A stretch of 34,537 nt of DNA, taken from Spirochaetales bacterium. Lineage in GTDB: Bacteria > Spirochaetota > GWE2-31-10 > MWDO01. The stretch is from NCBI GenBank assembly GCA_017540815.1, contig JAFYAI010000095.1, forward strand, positions 1 to 34,537, written 5' to 3'. How positions within the stretch are numbered: the stretch's first letter is position 1; the number at the start of each line of letters is the position of its first letter. Of the stretch, positions 12,101 through 30,244 are shown in pieces. The notes beneath the pieces are model-generated. The model saw only the letters and a program-made list of their open reading frames with translations, searched no databases and was not told where the DNA came from. Made by a program: the position numbers and the translations under genes.

Positions 12101-15100
12101 ATTTTGTGGCCGCCTTCATCGCTGTATTTCAATAAAGAGTTCTCATTGTTCTTCATCGGAGCAAATGATACAGGCAGCGTAACGGCTGACTATGTAATTG
12201 ATGCTGAGCCGAGTGACTCCGCTAACTGGACGGCAGTATCTGCCGAGAGGATAGATGCTATCCGTAACTATCAGGTGCCGAGTATCAATCCTGTTAAGCG
12301 TGATATACAGGAGCAGCTGATCGGTTATGCCGTGAATAATAATATCCCTATTAATCCGGTAACAGATAAACTGTTCAAAGTTGATCTGCCTGTTACAGAG
12401 ATGTCTCCGGGACTGCATACAGTTCATATCCGTATTAAGGATGATGCGGGCAAGATGGTATCGAAGAGCTTTGAGTTCACTTATCAGAATACAAGCCCGA
12501 CATTGAAGATATGGGCTCCGGATGGCAAGGATAACCTTAACGGTATGATCACTATCCGAGGTGAGGCTGAGAATGCTCAGACAGTTGTAGCTCTTCATAA
12601 TAAAGATGAAATAACAGCAACAGGTCGTGTTAGATGGGATATTGATTACAGTCTTGGTGACTTGGATGAGATAGATCCTAAGAATCCGGGTATTGTTACC
12701 AAAGATATAATGCTGTATGCGATAGATAGAGCCGGCAACAGAACTGAGGCTACTCTGACTATTAATATCGATAACGGAACAGATGCTCCGGAAGTCGTTA
12801 TTAACAGCCCTGCTATCGAAGATCAGAGATTTACTGATATTATCGAGATCGGTGGTGTTGCTCTTGATGATGATGGTATTGACTTCGTTCAGTATCGTAT
12901 CGACTACGGTGATCCGGGCAGCGTCTTGGATAAAGTAAAGAAAGCAGAAGTTCAGTGGACTCGTATCGATGTAGAGAAGGGTAATCCTAACTGGTCGAAG
13001 AAGATACCTAAAGATGCTATCAGTTCAGGTCGTCACAAGTTGGAAGTACAGGCGATCGACTTGTATGGTATCGCTTCCGAGATTAAGGAGATACATTTCC
13101 ATGTAGATAATGAGAACCCGGAGATCACGATCTCAATGCCACAGACTGGTGAGTATCTGCGTGGTGAGACAACGATCACAGGACGGGCACGAGATCCTAA
13201 CGAGATAGATTTCGTTGAGATAAGTACCAACTATGGTTGGACATTCTCACGAGCGGAAGGTAACTCCAGTTGGACATACTATTTCGACTCACGATCTGTT
13301 CCTGACGGACCATTGCGAGTACTTATCCGTGCAAGAGATAAGGCGGGCAGTGAGGCATTCTCATTCGGATTGTATAATATAGATAATACTCCGCCTGAGA
13401 TCGACATTTTGCTGCCGAAGGATGGTATGTCAGTTAATAATGTATATAAAGTCGTAGGTCGTGCTAAGGATAATGTCGGCATTGATACAGTCAAGTTGTA
13501 TGTCGATGGTAACTTGGAGAGTAAGGATCAGATATACGGCACTGAGACAGAAGGTCGAGATAAAGGTTTCTTCGAGTTGGATGGCCGTGAAGCATGGGAG
13601 TTTGACCTTGATACGACTAATCTTGTGAGATTGGATAAGTATCAGTTGGTTGCTCGTGTAACAGACTTGTCTGGTAATATGTCGGAGAAGTCATTGAACT
13701 TTACAGTTAATCTGATGTCTGACTTCCCGAATGTAACGATAGATCAGCCACAGCCTGGACAGCATTTGTCAGGACGAACGCTTGATTTCTTCGGAACGGC
13801 TAGTGATGATGATGCGATCGACAGAGTTCTTGTCAAGATCGATGATGAGGATATGGTTGAAGCACGAGGCAAGGAGATGTGGAACTATTCACTGTCTACT
13901 GTAGGTCTCCAGCCTGGTGTTCACAGATTGTCAGTTGTTGTCTATGAGAAGCCTGTCAATGAGGGTGATCAGCCGAAGATGAGGTCTTTGACACGACAGT
14001 TCTACTATGATAACGGCGGTCCTGTCATCAATGTAGCATCTCATATTAACGGTGCTCCTATGGAACACAGACCGTGGATGTTCGGTACTGCAGAATATTT
14101 CGAGGATAACCTTGAGCTGAAGCTCAAAGAACAGATCCAGCACAAGAAATATCTGGAACTCAAGATGAAGTATCGACGGGATCAGGCTAAAGTAGAGGAG
14201 CTTAAAGCTAATGTAGATAAGATCCCTGTAACTCCTGCCGAAGTTGCTTCGTTAAAGAAGGCATACTTGGCTGAGAATGCAGTATCTGCGATCTATCTGT
14301 CATTGGATAACGGTAATACTTACACTAAGGCGATAGGTACACCTGAGAATTGGAAGATCCGAGTGCAGACACAGTATCTGCAGGATGGAGACCATGTGCT
14401 GCAGATTAAAGCTGTAACTAAGAATGGCAAGGAGTCACTGAGATACTTCCGAGTATGGATTAACAGAAATATCCCGGATGTTATCATTGATACTCCTATG
14501 GATAGTGCACATATTAATGATAGATTGAGTGTGCGTGGTTCTGCCGATGATGACGGTTCGATAGAGAGTGTCAAGATCCTGTTCAGACGGCATGATAAGA
14601 ACTTAGGTAAAGTGCCGCAGTTCGTTCAGGGATTATATCTGTGGTTGCAGGTATTTGGTGGACCGTATGTGTCAGGTGGTATCGGACTTTCATTCTTCGA
14701 TGATATTGTTCGAGTCGAAGCGATGTTCGGTTGGGTTCCGACAGTTGAGAATATGGATGATATTCTGTCGGCATCCGGTGGTTCGCAGGATCAGAGATTC
14801 TTTACTCCGGAATGGGGCTGGAAGAACTATAGGTATGAGCCGCGATTCAGCGGATTTATCGCCGGTGGTAAACTCTTGGCTCGTATTATCGATATACCGT
14901 ATGAGTTCTTCTTCGGTGAGGATGCTAAGAACTTCTCATTCAGTGTAGAACTTGGATGTGCGTTCTATTGGTTCTCAGGATACGGAGCAGGAACTGGCGA
15001 GAAATATAATCTCGTCACGGATAAGTCAGACCCTGATTGGGCATACTCGGCTTACAATAGTAAGAAGTCTAAAGTCTTGGCCGGATTCATGGTTCAGGCA

Positions 15101-15241
15101 GACTTGTTCAAGATTGAACGATGGGCGATATTCAGGAAGTTTGCATTCTACTTTGAGGCGGCATTCTTCTTCAATACATCGGAGCAGGAAGGTGGTTTGT
15201 TCCCGCAGTTCGGTTTCGGTATAAGGAACGCATTGTTCTAA
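9143..15241 (+). CDS. Giant exported Ig-like repeat protein with coiled coil and outer-membrane-like C-terminus
   Basis: The start at 9143 is chosen over 9113 because AGGAGG lies five bases before it and it gives a clean signal peptide (cleavage probably after SWA, residue 26). The 2,032-residue product then has an acidic Ala/Pro/Glu stretch and a Lys-rich patch (KKGKAKKVKKGKK). A long charged coiled coil follows at about residues 65-190. Many beta-sandwich repeats run to about 1650; recurring signatures are 'DDDGID.V', 'G.A.D..GI..V' and 'DNTPPEI'-like junctions, as in Bacterial Ig/Big_9 domains. A second short coiled coil lies near 1655-1710. The last ~200 residues are aromatic and glycine-rich, with alternating strands ending in Phe, as in outer-membrane beta proteins. 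A surface scaffold or adhesin anchored in the outer membrane is the best inference; no enzyme motif is seen. Confidence 0.85.
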   Translation: MYIKNIWKNVLVALMIVSMQLTFSWAQDAEPAANEEVTGEVTEAAPAEEVTQEEAPAAKKGKAKKVKKGKKEIDPEELARIEEEQENMRLRKEEAAAEKRRISERNARKQQNAHNEEILKRKETAEKVKQTKNEIASLNKTIAEINKNITNLNKQKELINAEIVRENEKERLVELIDKRNQLTQNIIEEKEKVVDNKTQISKLNRVMEDLLDVFELADGTLNWSKEYNISDKAKFTNGKWSVHVKARDNMNNVSDVVARNVIIDPKSDIPTLNIINPTPRMRVPGNLKIVGTAFDDDAVDKVEISIDAEKESRTAIGTDFWYYDLDTSDLKDGIHFIRVKCYDLNGTPSREYEVWFNLDRRTPFIDITTIQSGEIVSGVINVGGTSSDDNGIESIEYSLDDRDTFNPIHSTRALNVNRSTMSWHVKINTDMMPDGVQNIWFRSTDLAGSVAYYPLTVVCDHQKPTIYFQYPKAKEKVGMKFNVMGFAQDNLELLSLKFAIDKGPWQEVGMKPGNPLWTHIVDLTGTKPGRHVLRAVVEDVSGNKNETSVDIMTVADKKPVLTLRSLKPDQPVSDSLQLYGEAADEDGIKEVKVSIKRDGGSEPIYVASIPSEFSFSTEIDLADRSKFSDGKYVVECIPVNINGAEGDAQKGTFVIDRGAPSIDVNSIKNNIAGKYFRGNISISGIKINKGGELKYVKYSIRDVSSGQEVVAEKDITFRSSNTPAVYDVDTISETIEGASPILQITIKTADANDNAASVTVPFIVDDEAPSININNWAENEEDGVTGSPVYLIQDNSGYADVKIKITSPSDAKFSKEISLKTGDRQDVTVDVKGLDGVYKDYVINVKATDKAGNEKNDEKAVTFKKLEDAVFTIRVGVAPNQQPTHTLRPLALLPGNNVSLNDVSYVVFAVFPPQSENVHMQARSVDVTGTEINKEYGIWMLNISERELSRFMPGENVFSLMGSIRGTAGNAGNFTIVSGSSDPRGRILWPPSSLYFNKEFSLFFIGANDTGSVTADYVIDAEPSDSANWTAVSAERIDAIRNYQVPSINPVKRDIQEQLIGYAVNNNIPINPVTDKLFKVDLPVTEMSPGLHTVHIRIKDDAGKMVSKSFEFTYQNTSPTLKIWAPDGKDNLNGMITIRGEAENAQTVVALHNKDEITATGRVRWDIDYSLGDLDEIDPKNPGIVTKDIMLYAIDRAGNRTEATLTINIDNGTDAPEVVINSPAIEDQRFTDIIEIGGVALDDDGIDFVQYRIDYGDPGSVLDKVKKAEVQWTRIDVEKGNPNWSKKIPKDAISSGRHKLEVQAIDLYGIASEIKEIHFHVDNENPEITISMPQTGEYLRGETTITGRARDPNEIDFVEISTNYGWTFSRAEGNSSWTYYFDSRSVPDGPLRVLIRARDKAGSEAFSFGLYNIDNTPPEIDILLPKDGMSVNNVYKVVGRAKDNVGIDTVKLYVDGNLESKDQIYGTETEGRDKGFFELDGREAWEFDLDTTNLVRLDKYQLVARVTDLSGNMSEKSLNFTVNLMSDFPNVTIDQPQPGQHLSGRTLDFFGTASDDDAIDRVLVKIDDEDMVEARGKEMWNYSLSTVGLQPGVHRLSVVVYEKPVNEGDQPKMRSLTRQFYYDNGGPVINVASHINGAPMEHRPWMFGTAEYFEDNLELKLKEQIQHKKYLELKMKYRRDQAKVEELKANVDKIPVTPAEVASLKKAYLAENAVSAIYLSLDNGNTYTKAIGTPENWKIRVQTQYLQDGDHVLQIKAVTKNGKESLRYFRVWINRNIPDVIIDTPMDSAHINDRLSVRGSADDDGSIESVKILFRRHDKNLGKVPQFVQGLYLWLQVFGGPYVSGGIGLSFFDDIVRVEAMFGWVPTVENMDDILSASGGSQDQRFFTPEWGWKNYRYEPRFSGFIAGGKLLARIIDIPYEFFFGEDAKNFSFSVELGCAFYWFSGYGAGTGEKYNLVTDKSDPDWAYSAYNSKKSKVLAGFMVQADLFKIERWAIFRKFAFYFEAAFFFNTSEQEGGLFPQFGFGIRNALF

Positions 15242-15255
15242 GCAATTATATGCTT

Positions 15256-15293
15256 AAAAAAGTCAAGAATGATTTGTCATTCTTGACTTTTTT
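15256..15293. terminator. Perfect 17-bp terminator hairpin after the large gene
   Basis: Arms 15256-15272 and 15277-15293 pair perfectly around TTTG, with A6/T6 tracts. The 3' arm contains the TTGACT -35 box of the next gene. Confidence 0.8.
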
Positions 15294-15311
15294 TGTTTAT
15301 TATACTATAAT
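15283..15311 (+). promoter_or_regulatory. Promoter of the ABC-F gene inside the preceding terminator
   Basis: TTGACT (15283-15288), exactly 17 bases, TATAAT (15306-15311). The -35 and the start of the spacer are the 3' arm and T-tract of the hairpin. Confidence 0.7.
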
Positions 15312-15339
15312 TAGTAATATTCCATTTGCGAGGGTTATT

Positions 15340-16956
15340 ATGATTGCTGCTAACGATGTAACGCTGCGGTTCGGCAAGCGGGTTCTCTTTGAGAATGTCA
15401 ATATTAAATTCACAGAAGGCAACTGTTACGGTCTGATCGGAGCTAACGGTGCCGGCAAGTCTACATTTCTGAAAGTGCTGTCCGGAGAGATAGAGGCTGA
15501 TAAAGGAGACATTGTGATGTCGCCAGGTAGTCGCATGGCTGTGTTGAAGCAGGATCATTTCCAATTCGACGAATACAAGGTGCTTGATGTCATTGTGATG
15601 GGGCATGAGCAGCTCTATAAGATAATGAAAGAGCGCGATGAACTGTATGCTAAAGAAGAGATGACTGACGATGACGGTATGCGAATCGCTGAACTTGAGG
15701 CTGAGTTCGCGGAGCTGAACGGTTGGGAAGCTGAGAGCGAAGCAGGCAAACTGCTTAACGGACTTGGACTTGCCGATGAGTATCTTGAGAAGAAGATGAG
15801 CGAGTTGGAAGGCGGTGAGAAGATCCGTGTTTTGCTTGCACAGGCATTGTTCGGCAATCCTGACATTCTCCTTCTTGACGAGCCGACTAACCACTTGGAC
15901 TTGAACAGCATCCAATGGCTTGAGAACTTCCTTATAGACTTCGACAATACCGTTATTGTCGTGTCGCACGATCGACATTTCCTTAACAGAGTCTGCACGC
16001 ATATCGCGGATATTGACTTCGGCAAGATAACGCTGTTCGTCGGCAACTATGACTTCTGGCATGAGTCGAGCCAACTGATCCTCAAACAGATCAAGAATGA
16101 GAATAAAAAGAAAGAAGAGAAGATCAAAGAGCTTAAAGACTTTATCCAGCGATTTGCGTCTAATGCTGCGAAGTCGCGGCAGGCTACAAGCCGCAAAAAA
16201 GTCCTTGACACCATCAAACTTGACGAGATGCGTGCGTCGAGCCGCAAGTTTCCGTATGTTGCATTCAAGGCTGACAGAGAGCCGGGTAATGAGATACTCA
16301 TCGTTGACGGCTTGACTAAGACTATAGACGGTCGCAAAGTGCTCAATAATGTGTCGTTCACCGTGCAGCGTGATGATAAGATCGCATTCGTCGGACCTGA
16401 CGGTGCTGCGAAGACGGCTTTGTTCCGCATCCTTATGGGCGAGGATACAGCTGACAGCGGCGAGTTTAAGTGGGGACAAACTATTACGAAGTCGTATTTT
16501 CCGAAGGATAACGGTGATTACTTTGATGGCTGTGATTTATCACTTGTTGACTGGCTGCGTCAGTACTCCAAGGATCAGGAGGAGACTTTCGTCCGCAGTT
16601 TCTTAGGCAGAATGTTATTCAGCGGCGAAGAGTCACTTAAATCGGCGAAAGTCCTGTCCGGAGGCGAGCGTGTGCGCTGTATGCTGAGCAAGCTGATGCT
16701 TAGCGGAGCGAACTTCCTCATCCTTGATGAGCCGACCAACCATCTTGACTTGGAGTCGATTACTTCACTTAATGAAGGTCTGATTGATTTCAAGGGCAAT
16801 GTGCTGTTTGTGTCGCAGGATCACCAGTTTATGGACTCTATCGCTAATCGAATAATTGAGATTACTCCAAACGGTATTATCGATAAGATGATGAAGTTCG
16901 ACGAATATATGTACAGCGAAGAGATCGCAGCATTGAGAGAGAAGATGTATAAGTAA
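15340..16956 (+). CDS. ABC-F family ATPase (YbiT/YkpA-like), soluble, ribosome-associated type
   Basis: The start at 15340 (MIAANDVTLRFGKRV) is preferred: GAGG lies six bases upstream, and the longer reading frame would translate through the terminator and promoter. The 538-residue protein has two ATP-binding domains and no membrane segment. Domain 1 has Walker A GANGAGKST, signature LEGGEKIRVLLAQ and Walker B ILLLDEPTNHLD. Domain 2 has signature LSGGERVR and ILDEPTNHLD, with an altered Walker A, GPDGAAKT. The linker has the basic 'RFASNAAKSRQATSRKK' motif. ABC-F proteins bind the ribosomal E site and relieve stalled translation. The subfamily call rests on 'WGQTITKSYFPKDN', usual in YbiT/YkpA proteins. 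Confidence 0.92.
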   Translation: MIAANDVTLRFGKRVLFENVNIKFTEGNCYGLIGANGAGKSTFLKVLSGEIEADKGDIVMSPGSRMAVLKQDHFQFDEYKVLDVIVMGHEQLYKIMKERDELYAKEEMTDDDGMRIAELEAEFAELNGWEAESEAGKLLNGLGLADEYLEKKMSELEGGEKIRVLLAQALFGNPDILLLDEPTNHLDLNSIQWLENFLIDFDNTVIVVSHDRHFLNRVCTHIADIDFGKITLFVGNYDFWHESSQLILKQIKNENKKKEEKIKELKDFIQRFASNAAKSRQATSRKKVLDTIKLDEMRASSRKFPYVAFKADREPGNEILIVDGLTKTIDGRKVLNNVSFTVQRDDKIAFVGPDGAAKTALFRILMGEDTADSGEFKWGQTITKSYFPKDNGDYFDGCDLSLVDWLRQYSKDQEETFVRSFLGRMLFSGEESLKSAKVLSGGERVRCMLSKLMLSGANFLILDEPTNHLDLESITSLNEGLIDFKGNVLFVSQDHQFMDSIANRIIEITPNGIIDKMMKFDEYMYSEEIAALREKMYK

Positions 16957-16961
16957 GGAAT

Positions 16962-16997
16962 AAAAAATGAGATTTTCGTTAGAAAATCTCATTTTTT
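16962..16997. terminator. 16-bp terminator hairpin after the ABC-F gene
   Basis: Arms 16962-16977 and 16982-16997 pair perfectly around GTTA and end in seven T's. It sits in the 5' region of nadE; no strong promoter is evident between it and the nadE start. Confidence 0.8.
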
Positions 16998-17017
16998 TAA
17001 ATATTGAGGAATTGAGT

Positions 17018-18955
17018 ATGAATTACGGATTTTTCAGAGTCGCTGCGGCAAGTCCGTCGGTAATAGTTGCAGACTGTGATTATAACATTTGTGAAATAAA
17101 AAAATACATCGAAAATGCAGATAAAAAAGGTACAGAACTTATTGTTTTCCCTGAACTCTGCATTACAGGCTATACCTGTTCCGACCTTTTCTTTCAGACA
17201 CAGCTTATACAATCAGCAAAAGATGCTCTTTGCAATCTTGCAGAAGAAACGAAGGATTTGGATATACTTTACGCAGTCGGGCTTCCGATTCATTACAGAA
17301 ATTCACTATATAACTGTGCGGCTTTTGTCAAAAAAGGCCGAATCCTTGCACTGATACCGAAGACGAACATCCCAAACTATAGTGAATTCTACGAAGTAAG
17401 GAATTTTACATCTGCTGCGTCAATGGGTGAAACAGGCATCGATTTTGTTACGCTCTCAGAAAAACAGAAAGACATTCCTTTCGGAACAGATATAATTATA
17501 TATGATGACAAAGACAGCTCTATCGCTGTCGCTGCAGAAATATGCGAAGACATTTGGGTTCCCTGTCCGCCTTCAACGAGACATGCCATCGCCGGTGCAA
17601 CGATAATTGCCAATCTTTCAGCAAGCAATGAAATCATCGGTAAATCTGATTACAGACGCATGCTGATTCAATCACATTCTGGAAGGCTTTCCTCCGCATA
17701 CATTTATGCTGACGCAGGCAGCGGTGAGTCCACGACTGATTTGGTTTTTGCAGCAGATAATTTTATCGCTGAAAATGGAAGTATTTTGGCACATTCTGAA
17801 AAATTTGGCGATGGGTTTATCATTCACGATGTAGACACAGAGAAACTGATGCAGCAGAGACGGAGACAAAACACATATCCTGATTTTACGAAGGCAGGCT
17901 ACAAACGAATTTTTGTTTCGCTGCAGAAAGAGACAAAAGATTTAATCAGAAATATTGAATGTAGGCCTTTTGTTCCCGACAGCGAAGAAGAACGCAATTC
18001 CCGTTGTAAAGAAATACTCACCCTGCAGGCAGAAGGACTTGCAAAAAGATTACGCCATACAAATGCAAAATCCGCAGTGATAGGGCTTTCAGGCGGTTTG
18101 GATTCTACATTGGCACTTCTCGTAACAGCCGAAGCGTTTCGGCTTGCAAAATTGGAGCTTTCAGGCATTATTGCTGTAACTATGCCGGGCTTCGGTACAA
18201 CGGACAGAACTTATACGAATGCGACTATTCTTGCAAAGGAATCCGGTGCAGCACTGCTTGAAGTGTCCATAAAGGATGCTGTAATTCAGCATTTCAAAGA
18301 TATTAGTCACGATATAAATGTGCACGATGTTACATACGAAAACAGCCAGGCACGGGAACGCACACAAATTTTGATGGATATTGCAAATAAAAATGGCGGT
18401 CTTGTTATCGGAACAGGCGATTTGTCAGAATTGGCACTCGGATGGGCAACCTATAATGGCGACCACATGTCTATGTACGGAGTAAATGCATCCATCCCGA
18501 AAACACTTGTCAGATACCTTGTGAAATGGGCTGCAGATAGAGAAAACAAACTGGGGAATAGCAAACTTGCCGCTGTTCTGGAAGATGTTCTTGATACGCC
18601 GGTAAGCCCGGAGTTGCTGCCGCCTGACAACGGTAATATTTCGCAGAAAACTGAAGAATTGGTCGGTCCTTATGAACTGCATGATTTCTTCCTGTATTAT
18701 ATGCTTAGATGGGGCTTTTCTCCGGCAAAAATATTCTTTCTTGCCGAAAAAGCATTCAATGGCAAATATGCAGAGCAGGAAATATTGAAATGGCTGAAAA
18801 ACTTTTACAGACGCTTTTTTGCACAACAGTTTAAGCGTTCGTGTCTGCCTGACGGAGCGAAAGTCGGAACAGTTTCTCTTTCACCGCGGGGCGACTGGCG
18901 TATGCCGAGCGATGCTTCCTGTGCTGTTTGGATGAAAGAAGTGGATATGTTGTAA
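17018..18955 (+). CDS. nadE: NAD+ synthase, glutamine-hydrolysing
   Basis: The ATG at 17018 follows GAGGAA by seven bases and skips the hairpin that the longer reading frame would include. The 645-residue enzyme makes NAD+ from nicotinate adenine dinucleotide, ATP and glutamine. The N-terminal nitrilase-like glutaminase has the Glu-Lys-Cys triad in 'VFPELCITGYTC' (Glu46), 'ALIPKTNIPNYSEFYE' and 'AAEICEDIWVPC'. The C-terminal synthetase has the pyrophosphate loop SGGLDSTLAL, 'GTGDLSELALGWATYNGDHM' and a long C-terminal tail. Length is right for the two-domain form. Codons are almost all GAA/AAA, unlike the GAG/AAG-rich genes on either side, which suggests a different history. Confidence 0.96.
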   Translation: MNYGFFRVAAASPSVIVADCDYNICEIKKYIENADKKGTELIVFPELCITGYTCSDLFFQTQLIQSAKDALCNLAEETKDLDILYAVGLPIHYRNSLYNCAAFVKKGRILALIPKTNIPNYSEFYEVRNFTSAASMGETGIDFVTLSEKQKDIPFGTDIIIYDDKDSSIAVAAEICEDIWVPCPPSTRHAIAGATIIANLSASNEIIGKSDYRRMLIQSHSGRLSSAYIYADAGSGESTTDLVFAADNFIAENGSILAHSEKFGDGFIIHDVDTEKLMQQRRRQNTYPDFTKAGYKRIFVSLQKETKDLIRNIECRPFVPDSEEERNSRCKEILTLQAEGLAKRLRHTNAKSAVIGLSGGLDSTLALLVTAEAFRLAKLELSGIIAVTMPGFGTTDRTYTNATILAKESGAALLEVSIKDAVIQHFKDISHDINVHDVTYENSQARERTQILMDIANKNGGLVIGTGDLSELALGWATYNGDHMSMYGVNASIPKTLVRYLVKWAADRENKLGNSKLAAVLEDVLDTPVSPELLPPDNGNISQKTEELVGPYELHDFFLYYMLRWGFSPAKIFFLAEKAFNGKYAEQEILKWLKNFYRRFFAQQFKRSCLPDGAKVGTVSLSPRGDWRMPSDASCAVWMKEVDML

Positions 18956-18959
18956 AGAA

Positions 18960-19808
18960 TCATCGTTTTAGATAGTTTCTCATAATCTCCACTAACTCAT
19001 CGGGGATCGGCTTCCCAATGCCGTAGTAGCCGAGGTTGGCTACCGCTCCTTTGTCATAAGCGTGGAAGTCTGAGCCACCGGAGAGCAGCAGTCCGCAATG
19101 ATTGGCGATCTTACGGTATTGCTTGATAGTTTTATTTTTATAGCCGTTGTAGTAGACTTCCATGCCGTCGAGACCTTTGTCTTTGAGATCTGTGACGAAC
19201 ATCATCAGGTCTTTGTATGGATGCATACCGGTCTGACTCGGATGGGCGAGGATCGCAATGCCGCCTGCTTTATGAATCATATCTATTGCCTGCCGATCCG
19301 TGATCTTGACACGCTTGACATCAGTCAGAACGGCGTTGCTTAGATATGTGTCAAATGCAGCGAATATGTTTTTGGCATATCCCTTTTGTGTGATGACTCT
19401 GGCGAAGTTAGGTCTGCCGACTGTCCCGAAATCTTTGCAGCCTTCTGTGACTTCTTCTTCGCTAATATCAATGCCGACATTCTGCAGGTGTGTCAGAAGC
19501 TGCTTGTTGCGGTTGAGCCGATATTTGTGCAGATCATCGTAGAATTGTTTGAGTTCCGGGCAGGATACATCGATAAACAACCCGACAATGTGCAGTTCGC
19601 CGCTACCGAACTCACAGCTGAGTTCTGTGCCTGGTATGATATTCATACCAAACTGAGCTGCAGCTGTCTGAGCCTCGCTGATGCCGGCAATCGAATCATG
19701 ATCTGTCAGTGCTAAATCCGTAATCCCATTCTGATGTGCTAACTCTACAAGTTCTGTCGGAGTAAGCGAACCGTCCGACGCATTGGAGTGACAATGTAAC
19801 TCTATCAT
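18960..19808 (-). CDS. PHP-domain phosphoesterase (RNase AM/YciV-like)
   Basis: A 282-residue PHP-family protein. Metal-binding motifs are 'ELHCHSNASDGSLTP' at the N-terminus, 'ALTDHDSIAGI' near residue 35, 'IIPGTELSC' near 60, 'GIAILAHPSQTG' near 190 and 'GLLLSGGSDFHAYDKG' near 245. These place it with 3',5'-nucleotide bisphosphate phosphatases/5'-3' exoribonucleases such as YciV, but the substrate is not fixed by motif alone. GAGGG lies just before the ATG. It converges on nadE with a four-base gap and no obvious terminator between them. It is transcribed divergently from the small-peptide operon out of a shared palindrome. Confidence 0.88.
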   Translation of the reverse strand: MIELHCHSNASDGSLTPTELVELAHQNGITDLALTDHDSIAGISEAQTAAAQFGMNIIPGTELSCEFGSGELHIVGLFIDVSCPELKQFYDDLHKYRLNRNKQLLTHLQNVGIDISEEEVTEGCKDFGTVGRPNFARVITQKGYAKNIFAAFDTYLSNAVLTDVKRVKITDRQAIDMIHKAGGIAILAHPSQTGMHPYKDLMMFVTDLKDKGLDGMEVYYNGYKNKTIKQYRKIANHCGLLLSGGSDFHAYDKGAVANLGYYGIGKPIPDELVEIMRNYLKR

Positions 19809-19823
19809 AAAACCCTCGCTTAT

Positions 19824-19852
19824 ATTTTACATAACTTTATAAAATCTGTCAA
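19824..19852 (-). promoter_or_regulatory. Minus-strand promoter of the PHP gene in the shared palindrome
   Basis: On the minus strand TTGACA (19852-19847), exactly 17 bases, TAAAAT (19829-19824). The predicted start lies only about ten bases before the ATG, giving a very short leader that still holds GAGGG. Confidence 0.6.
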
Positions 19853-19887
19853 GAATATATTTTAGGAAAATATATTCTTGACAGATT
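19843..19887. promoter_or_regulatory. Perfect 21-bp palindrome between divergent promoters
   Basis: Arms 19843-19863 and 19867-19887 are exact inverse copies around AGG. Each arm contains a TTGACA used as the -35 of the outward-facing promoter. It could be an operator seen by a dimeric regulator or a structural element shared by both promoters. Confidence 0.7.
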
Positions 19888-19906
19888 GATGTTGTGAGAG
19901 TATAAT
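19878..19906 (+). promoter_or_regulatory. Consensus promoter of the small-peptide/radical SAM operon
   Basis: TTGACA (19878-19883), 17-base spacer, TATAAT (19901-19906): a perfect match to the sigma-70 consensus. GGAGGA lies five bases before the first ATG at 19936. Confidence 0.8.
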
Positions 19907-19935
19907 ATAATGGGGGAGTATATTGGAGGAATGAA

Positions 19936-20142
19936 ATGAAAGCGAAGAAAGGCGTAAAGATACTTGGAGCGGTGCTTGGTGCCGCGGCGATTAGTATGAC
20001 GGTTATATGCTGCTATGCACCGAGCGGTGACATTCGTGACATCGGCGAGACTGATAATGGCGATTATATCGAGCAGATTGCAGCAGAGAATTCGCAGTTA
20101 GTGACATTTGATGATGATGAAAAGGGAGAAACAAAAAAATGA
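19936..20142 (+). CDS. Small exported Y-A-P / DYIEQ peptide 1 (candidate radical SAM substrate)
   Basis: A 68-residue peptide with a basic start (MKAKKGVK), a hydrophobic stretch and a Cys pair at 25-26 that may be a relaxed lipobox. The short acidic mature part has CYAPSGDI followed by DYIEQIAAENS. The same Y-(A/G)-P and DYIEQ blocks recur in the next two genes. Excellent ribosome site GGAGGA. Its stop overlaps the next start (ATGA). No known domain is recognised. The role as substrate of the downstream radical SAM enzyme is inferred from operon structure and shared motifs. Confidence 0.75.
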   Translation: MKAKKGVKILGAVLGAAAISMTVICCYAPSGDIRDIGETDNGDYIEQIAAENSQLVTFDDDEKGETKK

Positions 20143-20321
20143 AGCGAAGTACTAAAGCAATTTTTTTGAGTGCGATTACTTTGACAACAGTTTCCTGTTT
20201 TCCTGTATATTATGGTCCGGATGTGGATATAGTATCTGGTGATGATTACATTGAGCAGATCGCACATGAAGAGTCACAAATTGTTACAACAGATAAGAAT
20301 GATATAAAGGAACAAAAATGA
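20139..20321 (+). CDS. Small exported Y-G-P / DYIEQ peptide 2
   Basis: A 60-residue paralogue of its neighbours: basic N-terminus MKRSTK, hydrophobic segment, Cys20 in TTVSC, then PVYYGPDVDI and DDYIEQIAHEES. The mature part is short, acidic and lacks other cysteines. Both ends use four-base ATGA overlaps with the neighbours, so translation should be coupled along the cluster. Confidence 0.75.
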   Translation: MKRSTKAIFLSAITLTTVSCFPVYYGPDVDIVSGDDYIEQIAHEESQIVTTDKNDIKEQK

Positions 20322-20521
20322 AAAAAAGCACAAAATCTATATTTGCGGCGGTTGTTACAGCATCTGTAATATCTTGCGGTGGATATGCAGTGTATGGTCC
20401 AGGACCTGATGTTGATAACTCAGATGACTATATAGAGCAGGTCGCGAAAGAAAATTCCGAGATGAATGTGACATTCGGCGAAGCGGAAGATAATCGAGAG
20501 TCTAAAACAGACTCAGAATGA
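20318..20521 (+). CDS. Small exported Y-G-P / DYIEQ peptide 3
   Basis: A 67-residue paralogue: MKKSTKS start, Cys20 in SVISC, then YAVYGPGPDVD and DDYIEQVAKENSE with an acidic tail. It starts inside the stop of peptide 2 (ATGA). The Tyr-Gly-Pro and DYIEQ blocks are in the same order and spacing as in peptide 2, pointing to tandem duplication. Confidence 0.75.
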   Translation: MKKSTKSIFAAVVTASVISCGGYAVYGPGPDVDNSDDYIEQVAKENSEMNVTFGEAEDNRESKTDSE

Positions 20522-20569
20522 CAAAATAACCGTGAAAGCATGTCGCGGACATTATGAGGAGTAAAAAAA

Positions 20570-20836
20570 ATGAAAAAACCAGGACGAATTTTATTGTCAG
20601 CAATACTTGCTGCAGCTGTAACTGTCGGATGCAACGATAAGAATACTAAGGAAGATAATATGAAACAGCCTAATAATAAACAGGATAATACATTTTACAA
20701 TGAGCCTGTCTGCATTTACGGTCCGCCGGAGATGCTCGGTGCTCTGAACAGAATCGATGACTCACCGGAGATCGATCTGCCTGAGCCGGAAGAAATTGAG
20801 GAGCCTACAACCGATAAGACAAACAATGAGGAATAA
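20570..20836 (+). CDS. Small exported lipoprotein-like peptide 4 with Y-G-P-P motif
   Basis: An 88-residue relative with the clearest lipobox of the set (TVGC, Cys21). A polar Asn/Lys/Asp linker follows, then EPVCIYGPPEML and a strongly acidic Pro/Glu tail. It keeps the Tyr-Gly-Pro motif but lacks DYIEQ, and has an extra Cys two residues before the Tyr. GAGGAG precedes its ATG. The 48-base gap before it includes a small ATGTC-GCG-GACAT hairpin. The radical SAM gene starts two bases after its stop. Confidence 0.75.
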   Translation: MKKPGRILLSAILAAAVTVGCNDKNTKEDNMKQPNNKQDNTFYNEPVCIYGPPEMLGALNRIDDSPEIDLPEPEEIEEPTTDKTNNEE

Positions 20837-20838
20837 CA

Positions 20839-21912
20839 ATGCTTGACATTAAACTGAAGAAAGAGAAAGCCGACATGGTTGCCGACTATCGCAGGCAACT
20901 GCAGAAATCCCCCAAACTCAAATATTTATTCTTAGAACTTACATCACATTGCAACGAGAGCTGCCTGCACTGCGGCAGCCGCTGCGGTGAGTTTGAGTAT
21001 GATGAACTCACATTCGATGATTACAGACATATCCTTGATACCGTTAAAGAAGACTTCGACATTCGCAGGATGATGCTCTGTATTACAGGCGGTGAGCCGC
21101 TGCTCAGACCTGATTTCTTCGAGATAATGAATTATGCGAAGAGTCTCGGCTTCACTTGGGGAATGACGAGTAACGGCACTCTCATCGACGATGAAGTGAC
21201 TCAGCGGCTTTATGATGCCGGTATGGGCACAATCGCCGTGAGCATTGACGGACTGCCTGAGTATCATGACGCATTTCGGAGGACTCCCGGCGGTTTCGAC
21301 GCTGCGATGAAAGGACTGCACTCTCTTGTGGACTTCGGCAAATTCAAAGATGTGATGGTTACAACTGTCATTACCCACCAAAACATTGACCAGCTTGATG
21401 CGTTGTATGACATTTTCCGGGATATAGATATCGACACATGGCGTGTGATCAATATGGAACCTATGGGGCGTGCCAACGACTATCCCGATCTGTTGCTGAC
21501 GAAGGACGACTATATCAGATTGTTCGAGTTTATCCGCAATAAGCGTATCGCCAATGAGAATGTAACTTACGGCTGCGGGCACTTCCTCGGACCTGAGTAT
21601 GAGGGCGAACTGCGTGACTGGTTCTATATGTGTATCGCCGGAACGCAGGTGGCAAGCATTGCATCGAATGGTGACATCCTTGCGTGCCTTGACATTGAAC
21701 GCCGTCCCGAACTGGTGCAGGGCAATATCAAGACTGACAGATTTGGCGATGTGTGGCGGGATAAGTTTGACTTCTATCGGCGAGATCTCGGCTCGGAATG
21801 TGCCGAGTGTCACAATTGTGACTATTACAAATATTGTCTCGGCGACTCGGTGCACAGCTGGGATTTTGAGAAGAATAAACCCGGATTGTGCATGAAAGGG
21901 ATTGTGTTTTGA
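20839..21912 (+). CDS. Radical SAM/SPASM peptide-modifying enzyme
   Basis: A 357-residue radical SAM protein. Cys38, Cys42 and Cys45 (SHCNESCLHC) bind the 4Fe-4S cluster that cleaves S-adenosylmethionine. 'ITGGEPLLRPDF' and 'GMTSNGTLI' are standard core motifs. The C-terminal half has a SPASM-type cysteine set (CGHF, MCIAG, LACLD, then CAECHNC, YCLG and LCMKG) for auxiliary clusters, as in enzymes that crosslink or otherwise modify ribosomal peptides. GAGGAA lies seven bases before the ATG, two bases after the fourth small peptide gene. I recall a described 'rSAM/lipoprotein system' family pairing (TIGR04133/TIGR04134); whether this enzyme belongs there needs an HMM search. The modified residue is unknown. 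Confidence 0.9.
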   Translation: MLDIKLKKEKADMVADYRRQLQKSPKLKYLFLELTSHCNESCLHCGSRCGEFEYDELTFDDYRHILDTVKEDFDIRRMMLCITGGEPLLRPDFFEIMNYAKSLGFTWGMTSNGTLIDDEVTQRLYDAGMGTIAVSIDGLPEYHDAFRRTPGGFDAAMKGLHSLVDFGKFKDVMVTTVITHQNIDQLDALYDIFRDIDIDTWRVINMEPMGRANDYPDLLLTKDDYIRLFEFIRNKRIANENVTYGCGHFLGPEYEGELRDWFYMCIAGTQVASIASNGDILACLDIERRPELVQGNIKTDRFGDVWRDKFDFYRRDLGSECAECHNCDYYKYCLGDSVHSWDFEKNKPGLCMKGIVF

Positions 21913-21913
21913 G

Positions 21914-21939
21914 AAAAAGTCATCAGGTGATGACTTTTT
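21914..21939. terminator. Terminator with TCATCAGGTGATGA core, after the radical SAM gene
   Basis: Arms 21914-21925 and 21928-21939 pair perfectly around GG and run into a T-tract, two bases after the stop codon. First copy of the recurrent 14-base core. Confidence 0.8.
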
Positions 21940-21963
21940 TTTGTTAATAATATTTTTTTTCGG

Positions 21964-22040
21964 AAAATATGCAAATTCAGTACTTGAAACATTCAAAAAA
22001 TATGCAATTATAGTCTTGAAAAGTGTCAAAAAATATGCAA
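21964..22040 (+). repeat. Three 33-bp-period direct repeats in the promoter region of the AAA_14 gene
   Basis: AAAATATGCAA occurs at 21964, 21997 and 22030, exactly 33 bp apart. The first two are followed by TTGAAA (21984, 22016) and CATTCAA/GTGTCAA. The 33-bp spacing (three helical turns) puts all copies on one DNA face, as in operator arrays. The third copy (ATGCAATAATAG) could itself form the -10. Confidence 0.75.
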
Positions 22041-22061
22041 TAATAGCATAAGAGGTTGCTT

Positions 22062-23360
22062 ATGCTAAAACGAAGAATATCACAAATTTTGCTTGATTGG
22101 AAGAAAAGCAAACAAAATGAATGTCTGCTGATTAAGGGAGCGAGACAGATTGGCAAGACTTATATTATCCGAGAATTTGGCAGGCAGCATTATGAGAATT
22201 TTATAGAGATTAATTTTGAGCAAGACAAGAATATGATAGATGTTTTTGATCATAATCTTGATGTTAATGAATTGATTGCTCAGATTTCGCTTCGTCGTTC
22301 CGGCGTGCATTTTATTCCCGGTGAGACATTGATATTTTTTGATGAGATACAATCGTGTCCTAATGCTCGTACTTCATTGAAGTTTTGGGCTTTGGATAAT
22401 CGTTTTGATGTGATTGCATCTGGTTCGCTGCTTGGTATAAATTATAAAGCGGTGTCGTCATTTCCGGTAGGATATGAGCGTCAGATTCAGATGTTCAGTC
22501 TGGATTTTGAAGAGTTTTTGTGGGCGAAAGGTATTGATGAAAATGCAATCAGATCGCTATGGACAACATTTGATCGAGAGCATTTCATTGATCCAAATCT
22601 CAATGATGTAATGATGCAGTATCTGCGAGAATATATGGTTGTTGGCGGAATGCCTGAGGTGGTAAACACATTTCTTGAGACGCATAATTATAATGATGTC
22701 CATTCTGTTCAGATGAAAATCCTTGATGATTATTTGAATGATATTGCAAAATATGCCCCTGCTTCAGATCGGGTTAAGGCTCGCAACTGTTTCTTGTCTC
22801 TGCCGAGTCAGCTTGCTAAAGAAAATACCAAGTTTCAATACGGCGTTGTTGAGCATAAAGGGACATCACGAAAATACGGCAATGCGATCGATTGGCTGCG
22901 TGATGCGAATATTGTTAATTTTTGTTATAATGTTTCTAAACCTGATTTTCCGTTGGTAGCATATCGGCGTATTGAGCAATTTCGTGTGTATGGCAGTGAC
23001 ATTGGTTTGCTTATAGCAATGTTTGGGTATGAGATGAAACAGGCGGTTGTTACGGACAGCCTGCAAGGTCCGGCAAAGGGGGGAATTTATGAAAATCTTG
23101 TCGCCGACATCTTGTCAAAAAAGAATTATTCCCTGTGTTATTATCTTAAAGAAGATTCTTCAGTTGAGATAGAATTTCTTATTGAGAATGATGCAGCTGT
23201 CGTTCCGATCGAGGTCAAAGCCAAAAACAGAGCCACGGCATCGCTTAACTCCATTCTAAAAAAAGAATCGATCAAAAAAGGCATCAAACTTGTCACAACC
23301 TGCGGTGGTATAGAAGACAAAAAAGTAACAATGCCGTTGTATTTGGCAATGTTTTTGTAG
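22062..23360 (+). CDS. AAA_14/DUF4143 ATPase
   Basis: The ATG at 22062 is six bases after AGAGG and is preferred to the upstream TTG. The 432-residue protein has Walker A GARQIGKT (Lys32), Walker B TLIFFDEIQ, a sensor-like 'VIASGSLLG' and the family's 'FLWAKG' and 'GGMPEVVNTF' motifs. The C-terminal DUF4143 domain carries a PD-(D/E)XK-like core, 'SSVEIEFLI...VVPIEVKAKN'. Such genes are widespread, often multicopy in Treponema and Bacteroidetes genomes. Their cellular role is not established; toxin, defence or mobile functions have been suggested by context only. It lies alone between the radical SAM operon and cas12a, behind the 33-bp repeats. Confidence 0.88.
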   Translation: MLKRRISQILLDWKKSKQNECLLIKGARQIGKTYIIREFGRQHYENFIEINFEQDKNMIDVFDHNLDVNELIAQISLRRSGVHFIPGETLIFFDEIQSCPNARTSLKFWALDNRFDVIASGSLLGINYKAVSSFPVGYERQIQMFSLDFEEFLWAKGIDENAIRSLWTTFDREHFIDPNLNDVMMQYLREYMVVGGMPEVVNTFLETHNYNDVHSVQMKILDDYLNDIAKYAPASDRVKARNCFLSLPSQLAKENTKFQYGVVEHKGTSRKYGNAIDWLRDANIVNFCYNVSKPDFPLVAYRRIEQFRVYGSDIGLLIAMFGYEMKQAVVTDSLQGPAKGGIYENLVADILSKKNYSLCYYLKEDSSVEIEFLIENDAAVVPIEVKAKNRATASLNSILKKESIKKGIKLVTTCGGIEDKKVTMPLYLAMFL

Positions 23361-23437
23361 AGATAGGGAGCAAATGTGGAATGAGGAATAAAAAAAACAC
23401 CGCCGAAAGCAGTAATGAGTGATTATTAAAAAAGTGC

Positions 23438-23466
23438 TTGACAATACTTATCTATAGAAATATAAT
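23438..23466 (+). promoter_or_regulatory. Consensus promoter of cas12a
   Basis: TTGACA (23438-23443), 17-base spacer, TATAAT (23461-23466): a perfect sigma-70 consensus about 45 bases before the cas12a ATG. AGGAG lies in the leader, close to the start. Confidence 0.8.
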
Positions 23467-23515
23467 AAACTGTTAAAATATCAATATTTTTATAGACATT
23501 AGGAGAATTAGAAAC

Positions 23516-26500
23516 ATGGAAACGATTGATAGTTTTTGCGGGCAGAAGAATGGGTATTCAATTTCCAAAACATTGAGGTTTGAGCTAAAACCTGTTGGTC
23601 AGACTTTGGAAAGCATAAAGAATGGAAAATTTCTTGAATCAGACAAAAAGAAAGCAGATGATTATCAGGATGTAAAAAAAATAATCGACAACTATCATAA
23701 TTTTTTTATAGATGATGTTCTTAAAAGTGCAAGTTTTGATTGGAGGCAACTTGAGAAATCTATTCATGAATATAATAAAAACAAAACTGATGATTCTGAA
23801 TTCGTAAAAGAACAAGATAAACTAAGAAAAGGAATTGCAGATTTGTTTTCAAAAGATAAGCGTTATAAATCTTTAACCGCATCAACTCCAAGCGACTTGT
23901 TTAATAAAGATAAAGACTTTATTGACTGGCTTGCACAAACTTCTGTAAAAGAAATAAGAAAAGACGCATTAGAAACTTTCAAAAGGTTTTCTTCATATTT
24001 TACAGGCTTTCAGGAAAACAGAAAGAATGTATATAAATCAGATCTGATTCCTACTGCAGTTCCATATCGTATCGTAAATGACAATTTCCCGAAATTTTTG
24101 CAGAACATTTCTATATTCAAGACGATTCAAAAAAAGTGTCCTCAAGTTATAGATGATGTAGAAAATGAGTTGTGCAGATATTTAGGTCAGGAAAAACTTT
24201 CTGATATTTTTAGACTTGAATCTTTCAACAAATTTTTAGGACAGAGTGGAAAAGAAGTTCAGCGTGGAATTGATTTTTACAATCAGATTATCGGAGGAAT
24301 TGCAGAAAAAGAAGGCGGCGTAAATCTTCGGGGAATAAATCAGTTTTTGAATCTCTACTGGCAGCAACACCCGGATTTTGCAAAGGAAAACCGTAGAGTG
24401 AAAATGGTTCCCCTTTACAAACAGATTTTAAGTGACCGTTCAAGCCTTTCGTTCAAAATAGAAAGTATTGCAAATGATGAAGAATTAAAAAATGCGCTCC
24501 TTGAATGTGCAGATAAACTTGAATCACAAAATGAAGAAGGAAAATCAGTTTTTGATGAGACTTGTGATTTGTTTGCTTCATTAAAAAATCAGAATTTGAG
24601 CGGGATTTATATAAATAGAAAAGACATAAATGCAGTTTCCAGAATTCTTACCGGGGACTGGTCTTGGCTTCAATCCCGCATGAATGCTTATGCCAAAGAA
24701 AAGTTTACTACAAAAGCAGAAAAAGCCCGCTGGCAAAAATCTTTGGATGACGAAGGAGAAAATAAATCTAAGGGATTTTATAGCCTTGCAGAATTAAATG
24801 AGCTTCTTGAATATGTAAGTGAAAATGTGGCAGAAACAAATATCCGCATAAGTGATTATTTTGATCACCGATGCAGGTATTATGTTGATAAAGAAACTGA
24901 AAAGTTTGTTCAAGGAAGTGAATTAGTTGCCCTTTCTATAAAAGAAATGTGTGATAGTATTCTTGCAAAAAGAAAGTCCATGAATGGAGTTTTGGAAAAT
25001 CTTTCAGATGAAAAACTCTTGCAGGAAAAGCCGGAGGATGTAGCCGTCATAAAGGATTATCTTGATGCTGTTCAGGAATTGCTTCATAGAATAAAGCCTT
25101 TGAAAGTAAACGGAGTTGGGGATGCTGCTTTCTATTCTGTTTTTGATTCAATTTATTCTGCATTGAGCGAAGTAATTTCCGTATACAATAAGACTAGAAA
25201 TTACATTACAAAAAAGGCTGCGAGCCCTGAAAAATATAAGTTGAATTTTGAGTCTCCAACATGTGCGAACGGATGGGCATTGAATAATGAATTGATGTAT
25301 GGATGTATTCTATTACGAAAGCAGGATAAATATTACTTGGGAATTATGAATAAAGATGAACATAAGTTCTTTAAGAAATACCCTTTAGCAAAACCTAGAG
25401 ATGATTTCTTTGAAAAAATGATATATCTGCAGGCTGCGGATCCAAGTAAAGATGTTCCAAATTTAATGGTTATTAATGGAAAAACTGTTAAGAAAAATGG
25501 GCGTAAGGATTCAGATGGAGTAAATAGACAACTTGAAGAATTGAGAAATACATATTTACCAGAAAATATAAATAAAATAAGAAAATCAAAATCATACTTG
25601 AAATCATCGGAAACTTTTAGTAAAGAGGATTTAACAGAATATATTGAATATTATAAAGAACGCGCTATAGATTATTTTAATTCATACAAGTTCTTTTTTA
25701 AAAATTCAGCAGATTATACATCCTTTGTTGAATTTACAGATGATATAAATGCTCAGGCATATCAAATTCAATTTGTTAAAATAACGACTTCATTTATTAC
25801 TCAAATGGTTAATGGAGGTAAGTTATTTCTGTTCCAAATCTATAATAAAGATTTTTCAGAAAAATCAAATGGAAAGAAAAATCTTCATACTCTTTATTTT
25901 GAAAATTTATTCTCGGAAGAAAATCTGAAAAACACAGTCTTAAAACTGTCTGCGGGTGCTGAACTTTTCTATCGTCCTGCAGGGATAAAAGAGCCAACGG
26001 TTCATGCTAAGGGGTCTTACCTTGTAAACAGGACTACAGAAGATGGGGAAGCAATTCCAGAAAATATATATCTTGAAATTTATAAAAATGCAAACGGAAA
26101 ACTTGAAAGTCTTTCTGATGAGGCAAAGGCTTATAAGGAAAGTCATAAGGTTGTCATAAAAAAAGCTGGTCACGAAATCATAAAAGACCGGCATTACACT
26201 GAACCAAAATTCCTTTTCCATGTTCCACTCACAATCAATTTTAAGGCATCAGGAAATTCTTATTCTATAAACGAAAATGTCCGCAGATTCCTAAAAAATA
26301 ATCCTGATGTAAATATCATAGGTCTTGACCGCGGTGAACGGCATCTTATTTATCTTTCTCTCATAAATCAGAAAGGAGAAATAATTAAGCAGTTTACTTT
26401 TAACGATGTTGAACGAGAGCAAAATGGCCAGATCGTAAAAGTAAACTATCATGAAAAACTTGATCAAAGAGAAAAGGTGCGTGATGCCGCAAGAAAAAGC

Positions 26501-27566: not shown

Positions 27567-27596
27567 AAACAACTGTTGATATTTCAACAGTTGTTT
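27567..27596. terminator. 13-bp hairpin between cas12a and cas4
   Basis: Arms 27567-27579 and 27584-27596 pair perfectly around TATT, with a short A-run before and TTT after. It may terminate or attenuate transcription into the adaptation genes, separating effector and adaptation expression. Confidence 0.6.
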
Positions 27597-27611
27597 CATC
27601 ATTATATATTT

Positions 27612-28169
27612 ATGGAAGCATATCTCAAAATCAGTTATCTGAATGACTTTATATTTTGTCCGCTGTCTATCTATTTCCATCAGTTGTATGGCGAACTGAT
27701 GAATCGAATGTATTATGATGAATGTCAGATAAACGGTAAGGCGGCACATGCAGCAATCGATGAACAGCGATATTCTACGCACAAGAATATTTTACAGGGA
27801 ATCGATGTCTATAGCGATGAATATAAATTATGCGGTAAGATTGATATTTTTGATATGGATAAGGGTATACTGACTGAACGAAAAAAACACATCGAGACGA
27901 TTTATGACGGATATATCTTTCAATTATATGCACAGTACTTTTGTTTGAAGGAAATGGGGTATAATATTAAGCAAATAAGATTTTACTCTTCGGATGACAA
28001 TAAGGTGTATCCGCAAAATGTGCCGGAGAATAATCCGGTTATGATGGAAAAATTTCAGTCAACGATAAAAGCGATACAGTCATTTGATGTTGAAAATTTC
28101 TTGCCGGCCAATAAATCAAAATGTGAAAATTGTATTTACATTGATTTTTGTGACAGAACTTTAGCATGA
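27612..28169 (+). CDS. cas4: CRISPR adaptation nuclease Cas4
   Basis: The start at 27612 (MEAYLKISYLNDF) is chosen because the longer frame would run through the hairpin. The 185-residue RecB-like protein has the four iron-sulfur cysteines of Cas4 (Cys16; Cys171, Cys174 and Cys180 in KCENCIYIDFC). It also has the nuclease core 'CGKIDIFDMDKG', 'LTERKK' and 'YDGYIFQLYAQYFCL'. Cas4 trims prespacers and selects for the PAM during spacer acquisition. No strong ribosome site is visible, so its translation may be weak or start elsewhere. cas1 follows after 16 bases. Confidence 0.93.
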   Translation: MEAYLKISYLNDFIFCPLSIYFHQLYGELMNRMYYDECQINGKAAHAAIDEQRYSTHKNILQGIDVYSDEYKLCGKIDIFDMDKGILTERKKHIETIYDGYIFQLYAQYFCLKEMGYNIKQIRFYSSDDNKVYPQNVPENNPVMMEKFQSTIKAIQSFDVENFLPANKSKCENCIYIDFCDRTLA

Positions 28170-29249: not shown

Positions 29250-29525
29250 ATGTTATTGGTAAGTTATGATATTAGTAATACAAAAGTAAGAACAAAATTC
29301 TCAAAGTATCTAAGCAAGTTTGGATTTCGCTTGCAGTACTCGGTCTTTGAAATTAAGAACAGTGAAAGGATCCTGCATAACATTGAGACTGAGATACAGA
29401 ATACTTACATGAAGTTGTTTACGCAAACTGACAGTGTGATTATCTTTCATCTTGGAGAGAATTATAAGAGAACTTGTTATGGATACGCAAAAAATGAAGA
29501 AACTGACTTATTTGTCATTACATAA
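29250..29525 (+). CDS. cas2: CRISPR adaptation protein Cas2
   Basis: A 91-residue ferredoxin-like protein beginning MLLVSYDIS, with the usual Asp7. It has 'RTKFSKYLSKFGFRLQYSVFE' minus one residue as the helix and second strand, and 'SVIIFHLGEN' as a later strand. It forms the dimer core of the Cas1-Cas2 integrase. Length and position after cas1 and before the array are standard for type V-A. The ribosome site is poor, fitting a leaderless or coupled start. Confidence 0.95.
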   Translation: MLLVSYDISNTKVRTKFSKYLSKFGFRLQYSVFEIKNSERILHNIETEIQNTYMKLFTQTDSVIIFHLGENYKRTCYGYAKNEETDLFVIT

Positions 29526-30128: not shown

Positions 30129-30244
30129 GCGGGCGGCGTCTGAGCCCGCAGAGGGGGTAGAGGAAGCTCAGGACACCACAAAAAAATCATCAGCTGATGA
30201 TTTTTTGTGGTGTCCTGAGCTGGAGCGAGGGGGACGCATCCCCC
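30129..30244. repeat. Hairpin-rich, GC-richer stretch before serS
   Basis: Three structures lie in a row: GCGGGC/GCCCGC (30129-30149); a ~28-bp stem from 30165 to 30221 with one bulged A, whose tip is TCATCAGCTGATGA; and GGGGGA/TCCCCC around CGCA (30229-30244). ORFs crossing this region on either strand are artefacts of the repeats. The sequence looks like an inserted repeat unit; its origin is unknown. Confidence 0.6.

Follow-up and report, generated by a model that had tools for sequence, protein, structure and literature searches.

A probable divergent sigma70-type promoter pair with both -35 boxes in one perfect palindrome, possibly shaped by arm copying, in a Spirochaetales bacterium

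The DNA analysed here, referred to throughout as the window, is a 34,537-nt stretch from a Spirochaetales bacterium. In it, a gene for a PHP-domain phosphoesterase and an operon for lipoprotein-like peptides and a radical SAM/SPASM protein point away from a perfect palindrome. The PHP gene starts at 19808 on the minus strand and the first peptide ORF of the operon at 19936 on the plus strand. The genes and the elements between them, in order along the window, are:

18960-19808, minus strand: PHP-domain phosphoesterase, 282 aa (Pfam PF02811, 6.1e-12)
19824-19829, minus strand: -10 hexamer TAAAAT of the PHP-side promoter, outside the palindrome
19843-19863: left palindrome arm, 21 nt, perfect
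19847-19852, minus strand: -35 hexamer TTGACA of the PHP-side promoter
19853-19877: A+T-rich centre between the two -35 boxes, 25 bp, counted as 4 G/C of 25
19864-19866: loop AGG, 3 nt
19867-19887: right palindrome arm, 21 nt, perfect
19878-19883, plus strand: -35 hexamer TTGACA of the peptide/radical SAM-side promoter
19901-19906, plus strand: -10 hexamer TATAAT of the peptide/radical SAM-side promoter, outside the palindrome
19936-20142, plus strand: 68-aa peptide, lipoprotein-like by eye, first ORF of the operon
20139-20321, plus strand: 60-aa peptide, lipoprotein-like by eye
20318-20521, plus strand: 67-aa peptide, lipoprotein-like by eye
20570-20836, plus strand: 88-aa protein, lipoprotein-like by eye
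20839-21912, plus strand: radical SAM/SPASM protein, 357 aa (PF04055 and PF13186)

The best NCBIfam match of the PHP protein was the 3',5'-nucleoside bisphosphate phosphatase family (205.7 bits, under the cut-off of 400). That of the radical SAM/SPASM protein was TIGR04133, rSAM_w_lipo (272.9 bits, under the cut-off of 425). Searches of Pfam and NCBIfam with the 68-aa peptide gave no match. Farther along the window, an AAA/DUF4143 protein (22056-23360) matched TniB marginally, at 22.6 bits with a cut-off of 22.4. It is followed by consecutive genes for Cas12a (23516-27556; TIGR04330, 1165 bits), Cas4 (27576-28169), Cas1 (28186-29232) and Cas2 (29250-29525), and a CRISPR array may include the inverted repeats with GTCTAGACC found near 29700-29790.

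The two arms of the palindrome are 21 nt each, 100% complementary and separated by 3 nt. On the plus strand, TTGACA (19878-19883), a 17-nt spacer and TATAAT (19901-19906) make 12 of 12 consensus matches. On the minus strand, TTGACA (19852-19847), a 17-nt spacer and TAAAAT (19829-19824) make 11 of 12. With hexamers at a spacing of 16-18 nt on both strands before divergent genes, the site qualifies as a sigma70-type divergent pair. Its -35 hexamers lie 31 bp apart from start to start, about three helical turns, and the identity of the arms reaches 4 nt into each -35/-10 spacer. Folded as single-stranded DNA, the 45-mer palindrome gives -18.3 kcal/mol (z -11); its 21-nt arms, 3-nt loop and stable fold mark it as a cruciform-capable inverted repeat, and its two-fold symmetry over promoter elements has the geometry of an operator. 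An earlier note on this DNA had described TTGACA in both arms with 17-nt spacers to TATAAT and TAAAAT, and all its coordinates were reproduced. Its reading of the site as divergent promoters under joint control by one signal held in part. Judged from the letters, the promoter pair, which comes close to consensus on either strand and is suitably positioned ahead of each gene, is very plausible; the joint control was not supported by the comparison with other loci given below.

To place the palindrome in its genomic context, palindrome statistics were drawn from a 531-kb sample of the same genome. Three simulations of 531 kb under a Markov-1 model produced perfect arms of at most 12, 11 and 11 nt. 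Because simulated arms never exceed 12 nt, a palindrome with 21-nt arms is not a product of chance. The sample holds 134 perfect palindromes with arms of at least 12 nt, of which 37 have arms of at least 21 nt. By a home-made gene call, gaps between tandem genes hold 68 of the 134, those between convergent genes 38 and those between divergent genes 13; another 7 are inside genes and 8 at edges. A stem followed by a T-run, as in intrinsic terminators, was found in 85 of them.

We then asked how often a -35 box lies inside such a palindrome. An apparent enrichment relative to the whole sample (6 of 96 sites, with palindromes covering 1%) was rejected, as it was gone when intergenic DNA was taken as the reference. 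Among 68 intergenic promoter-like sites of at least 11/12, the -35 lay within a palindrome in 6, where the intergenic share predicts 4.1; the present site contributes both of its promoters to these 6. At the laxer threshold of at least 10/12, the figures were 17 of 199 compared to 12.0 expected. A -35 box inside a palindrome is unremarkable in this genome. Moreover, the two -35 boxes count as one observation, since anything contained in one arm of a palindrome reappears in the other. For the same reason, a single promoter in a palindrome is enough to produce a second, mirrored -35, and twin -35 boxes under a palindrome do not in themselves indicate an operator. The independent extra fact at this site is the second -10, since a hexamer matching 5/6 at one of three spacings occurs at a frequency of 0.049 at random intergenic anchors. 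Promoters of 12/12 by the scan criterion number 15 in the 531 kb. The site is still unusual in that its palindrome is not terminator-like and yet has good promoters in both directions; of the 13 palindromes that the sample has in divergent gaps, no other scores at least 10/12 both ways.

Twin -35 boxes recur elsewhere in the genome, which has 32 TGTCAA..TTGACA pairs compared to 20 in a reversed control. We checked 31 of the 32 for -10 hexamers (all except C48:13725). Hexamers of at least 4/6 were found on both sides in 4 of the 31, namely in the window and on contigs C46, C156 and C95. The first three have arms of at least 21 nt, whereas the C95 pair has mirrored hexamers only and no palindrome. 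Among the long-armed pairs, -10-like hexamers were present on both sides in 3 of 3, compared to 1 of 28 for the others (hypergeometric 0.0009 over all pairs and 0.07 within the 8 intergenic pairs). This association suggests some tie between symmetry and paired promoters. The C46 palindrome (651-677) has a 25-nt arm and lies between divergent genes, and its plus-side -10 is weak (4/6, spacer 18). The C156 palindrome (44681-44716) has a 22-nt arm and does not lie between divergent genes. The sequences of the three palindromes differ. Divergent promoter pairs with no palindrome were found at C95 and in a family-level relative (G002); therefore, the palindrome is not needed for the divergent arrangement.

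We surveyed 392 phylum genomes, a subset of a larger group; 11 of them had strict divergent pairs, 12 distinct ones in all. The arms measured 21 nt in the window, 33 nt in genome G048, 10 nt in G078 and 6-7 nt in the other nine, two of which (in G025 and G164) look like one homologous pair. Like divergent sigma70 pairs in general, the site has two consensus-like promoters that face opposite ways and whose upstream regions meet between them. It differs in that the meeting region is one perfect palindrome, where nine of the 12 phylum pairs have only 6-7-nt arms. The 33-nt-arm palindrome of G048 (L153:1-75, on contig G048:C299) spans both -35 and both -10 boxes, starts at the first base of its contig and precedes a gene with a helix-turn-helix-like start as judged by eye; it may be an artefact.

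The earlier note had proposed that both genes may answer to one signal, and we compared homologous loci in other genomes. Taxon sampling comprised one genome for the genus, four for the family and nine for the order and class, and the nearest relatives were at the family level. The 39 radical SAM loci of other genomes come, by their titles, mostly from Ruminococcus, Lachnospiraceae and other Clostridia. They were scanned over up to 1800 nt upstream (at least 1500 nt in 34 of the 39; under 250 nt in L025 and L033). Within this distance, none of the 39 had a divergent TTGACA pair upstream of the radical SAM gene, and a separate scan of 13 of them agreed. A palindrome with arms of at least 10 nt was present in 5 of the 39, none containing TTGAC. 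A conserved operator of the radical SAM operon was rejected at the distances available, and so was a functional pairing of the PHP gene with the operon, as no PHP relative (E 1e-3) was found at any of the 39 loci within the available DNA. At six loci orthologous for the PHP gene, up to 400 nt of upstream DNA was compared (330 nt in L142). Neither a divergent TTGACA pair nor an opposite-strand promoter-like site (10/12) was present upstream of any of the six, and upstream palindromes were absent except for a 9-pair match 175-197 nt upstream in L141. One promoter-like site was seen on the PHP strand in L044, 144 nt upstream. A conserved PHP promoter was rejected on the differing upstream DNA of the six orthologues. 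On all three counts (PHP gene beside radical SAM gene, twin pair at radical SAM loci, twin pair at PHP orthologues), the proposal of one signal for both genes found no support. Conservation of the palindrome upstream of homologous operons was poor at the distances available, with no relative closer than family level. The inner 41-bp pattern had no exact match in viral contigs, the segment 19600-20600 had no match in plasmids, and no description of the exact arrangement, divergent -35s within one perfect palindrome, was found in the literature searched.

The explanation that we tentatively favour is a back-to-back sigma70-type promoter pair in which template switching would have copied the mirrored -35/upstream block and preserved its perfect symmetry. 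As regulation, the arrangement is probably an ordinary divergent pair, unusual in how perfect its centre is. The start sites would lie near 19913 on the plus strand and 19817 on the minus strand, about 96 bp apart and ~23 nt and ~9 nt, respectively, before the start codons. RNA polymerase would be able to load on the shared A+T-rich centre facing either way, and the alpha-CTDs of either polymerase could bind its 25 bp. An RNA polymerase footprint reaches from about -55 to +20. The upstream footprints of the two polymerases would overlap, disfavouring full simultaneous occupancy. The pair would act as partly mutually exclusive promoters because of this overlap, with no dedicated regulator. By analogy, the exclusion may be weak in practice, because at the E. 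coli bidirectional promoters of PMC12825309 basal transcription was reported to be too low for polymerase competition (5 of 5 tested).

The bidirectional promoters of Warman, Grainger and colleagues, described in the same paper, have a symmetry that lets polymerase engage in two orientations, one binding event preventing the other. They share a symmetric -10, and their start sites are most often 18 bp apart, with 10 and 23 bp also common (PMC12825309). The present site resembles what is described there in its DNA symmetry and in a polymerase that would bind in two orientations. It differs in having separate -10s and predicted start sites about 96 bp apart. We rejected its membership of the shared -10 class of that paper, as the -10s at 19824-19829 and 19901-19906 do not overlap.

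As for the perfect symmetry itself, template switching at a quasi-palindrome would have created it or would maintain it. One promoter's -35 and upstream block would have been copied into the other arm, and the second promoter would then have needed only a -10 for use. Sigma70 function constrains the hexamers and favours A+T-rich DNA upstream, and it places little constraint on the bases between -35 and -10. Because of this, promoter function alone fails to explain the identity of the arms on the spacer side. Either a protein reads the 4 mirrored spacer-side bases at each -35, or the arms are copies. On the sequence evidence, the perfect centre is most likely the product of arm copying, with an operator as the serious rival. 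Template switching that homogenises the arms of inverted repeats is described in PMC8604942. The resemblance to the quasi-palindromes treated there lies in arms that are perfect beyond evident need and that change together. There, homogenisation is deduced from a comparison of strains, whereas here it would be read from one genome.

Arm homogenisation may be widespread in this genome. Among the 85 terminator-like palindromes of the sample, perfect symmetry continues for at least 4 nt past the T-run in 23 and for at least 8 nt in 10, with a maximum of 16 nt; termination has no obvious need of this extra length. Terminator-like palindromes at the 39 loci from other genomes number 7, a small set, and none shows such an extension. 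Nine of the 23 over-extended palindromes run 1-18 nt into the 3' end of a called gene. The extra symmetry of some terminators may serve a function, as at L118:889-947 with its second T-run. Over-extended palindromes include those at L056:2924-2982, L116:3885-3941, L054:19753-19805 and L060:3125-3184.

A second set of data came from a dispersed element of two palindromic helices, of which 11 copies were aligned (two tandem copies on C93 were left out). In helix 2, 5 of 10 pairs vary, with 20 two-sided and no one-sided changes over the 11 copies. Over the whole structure, there are 22 two-sided and no one-sided changes, and both helices are 100% paired in the 11 copies. This suggests that the arms of the dispersed element behave as if changing together, and selection for structure could equally give this pattern. 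The recurrence of palindromic twin -35s at C46, at C156 and in the window, with different sequences, suggests a process rather than the site of one protein. Extended symmetry, gene 3'-end overlaps and two-sided changes would all favour copying, and none of them is decisive. On the other side, the tie between palindromes and -10s would fit a selected function better than a by-product, although C156 is no divergent gap and the plus-side -10 of C46 is weak, and selection for an operator would also yield symmetry.

Arm copying also allows a bolder claim, which we consider rather unlikely. Inverted copying of the -35/upstream block of the operon promoter would have given the PHP gene its promoter at a stroke, through an active process that perfects palindromes by copying across short axes of symmetry. 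If copying is correct, it is a one-step route to new promoters. If promoters are indeed born by inverted copying, this would be a general route to divergent gene pairs, still visible here because the arms are perfect. The site is a clear example of the extent that symmetry can reach in a genome with many perfect palindromes.

The main alternative, a genuine possibility, is that the palindrome is an operator, bound by a trans-acting regulator in dimeric or tetrameric form that blocks or activates the two promoters jointly. A perfect two-fold site that covers both -35 boxes between divergent genes is in a classical operator position, the symmetry extends 4 nt beyond the -35 boxes, and the coincidence of long palindromes over twin TTGACA with paired -10s (the 3 of 3 compared to 1 of 28 above) is in keeping with such a function. 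However, a genome-wide search with the 25-bp core found no second copy at up to 2 mismatches (one at 3), and the half-site has no other copy in the genome at up to 1 mismatch (two others at 2). A Pfam scan of 28 window ORFs revealed no family of transcription regulators, and no such pair was present at the 39 radical SAM loci or the six PHP orthologues. Dimer operators are usually shorter than a perfect site of 45 bp. In the TetR-type arrangement, a symmetric operator lies between a divergent regulator gene and its target genes. The present site is similar in being a two-fold site between divergent genes that overlaps promoter elements; it differs in that no regulator gene was found alongside, no second site was found and the perfect palindrome is longer. 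On this evidence, the missing regulator gene and second site would argue against a dedicated dimer, and a distant regulator with a single site is possible.

A control by cruciform extrusion is possible but unsupported on these data, and we regard it as improbable. Divergent transcription would generate negative supercoiling, extrusion would hide the -35 boxes near the base of the hairpins, and both promoters would be limited. The perfect arms, short loop, A+T-rich centre and fold of -18.3 kcal/mol are suited to extrusion, and there is a repressing precedent in E. coli, Horwitz and Loeb 1988, as cited in PMC6060812. The promoter of that precedent is alike in having a promoter-region palindrome that could extrude; extrusion and repression at the present site would be hypothetical. 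However, any perfect palindrome would fold in this way, including the 37 of the sample with arms of at least 21 nt, and of the 13 palindromes in divergent gaps only this one scores at least 10/12 both ways.

It is very unlikely that the palindrome is an intrinsic terminator, or the remnant of one, that carries -35 boxes by chance. Many palindromes of the sample do resemble terminators (85 with stem and T-run; 38 in convergent, 68 in tandem and 13 in divergent gaps), and two other palindromes of the window, at 4422-4458 and 15256-15293, also hold the -35 of the next gene. Here, however, no T-run follows either arm, the bases that follow being GATG on the plus strand and TTAT on the minus strand. 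Only 4 of the 21 stem pairs are G-C, the flanking genes point away and the RNA fold is stable but has no T-tract. The palindrome is also absent among the 10 terminator-like sites listed in 15000-25000.

Least likely of all is an artefact of assembly or amplification: the genome is fragmented into 160 contigs and the palindromic promoter pair of G048, at the first base of its contig, is possibly artefactual, but the present palindrome is internal to a contig of 34.5 kb, and the genes on either side of it are intact and have well-placed promoters.

Three further candidates were considered. A dispersed palindromic repeat of the REP or MITE kind was set aside as only the site itself was found at up to 1 mismatch genome-wide. 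The circle junction of an IS was a candidate because such junctions hold a -35 in an end repeat; at this site the -10s lie outside both arms, and no transposase family was found among the 28 window ORFs scanned. Membership of the dispersed TTCTTGACAGA element was considered on account of an 11-mer that both arms have in common with this repeat, but the GTGGTATACCAC half and the second palindrome are absent. The shared 11-mer is treated as a coincidence of the -35 consensus.

The dispersed element of this genome (G000) consists of AAATGTGGTATACCACATTTA and, after it, a second palindrome centred on TTCTTGACAGAA. Its 20-mer was found at 13 sites at up to 2 mismatches compared to 0 in a reversed control. 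The copies are L159:1494-1600, L160:51-157, L161, L162, L163, L164, L169, L170, L171, L181 and L183, and 7 of the 11 stand before genes that are lipoprotein-like by eye. No Rfam match at the gathering score was obtained in five source loci. The element could be a structured leader RNA or a repeat at the DNA level.

Other palindromes of this genome also have features in common. Terminator-like hairpins with a -35 TTGACT in the 3' arm and TATAAT 16-17 nt farther on were observed in the window at 4422-4458 and 15256-15293 and also at L048:214-254 and L050:8555-8593; in these hairpins a terminator merges with the promoter that follows. Hairpins closely resembling one another occur at 4422 of the window and in L048, L050 and L058. 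Five window palindromes (21914-21939, 30054-30077, 30181-30206, 31608-31637 and 31660-31687) have the common core TCATCAG(G/C)TGATGA, which is also present in three further palindromes of the sample.
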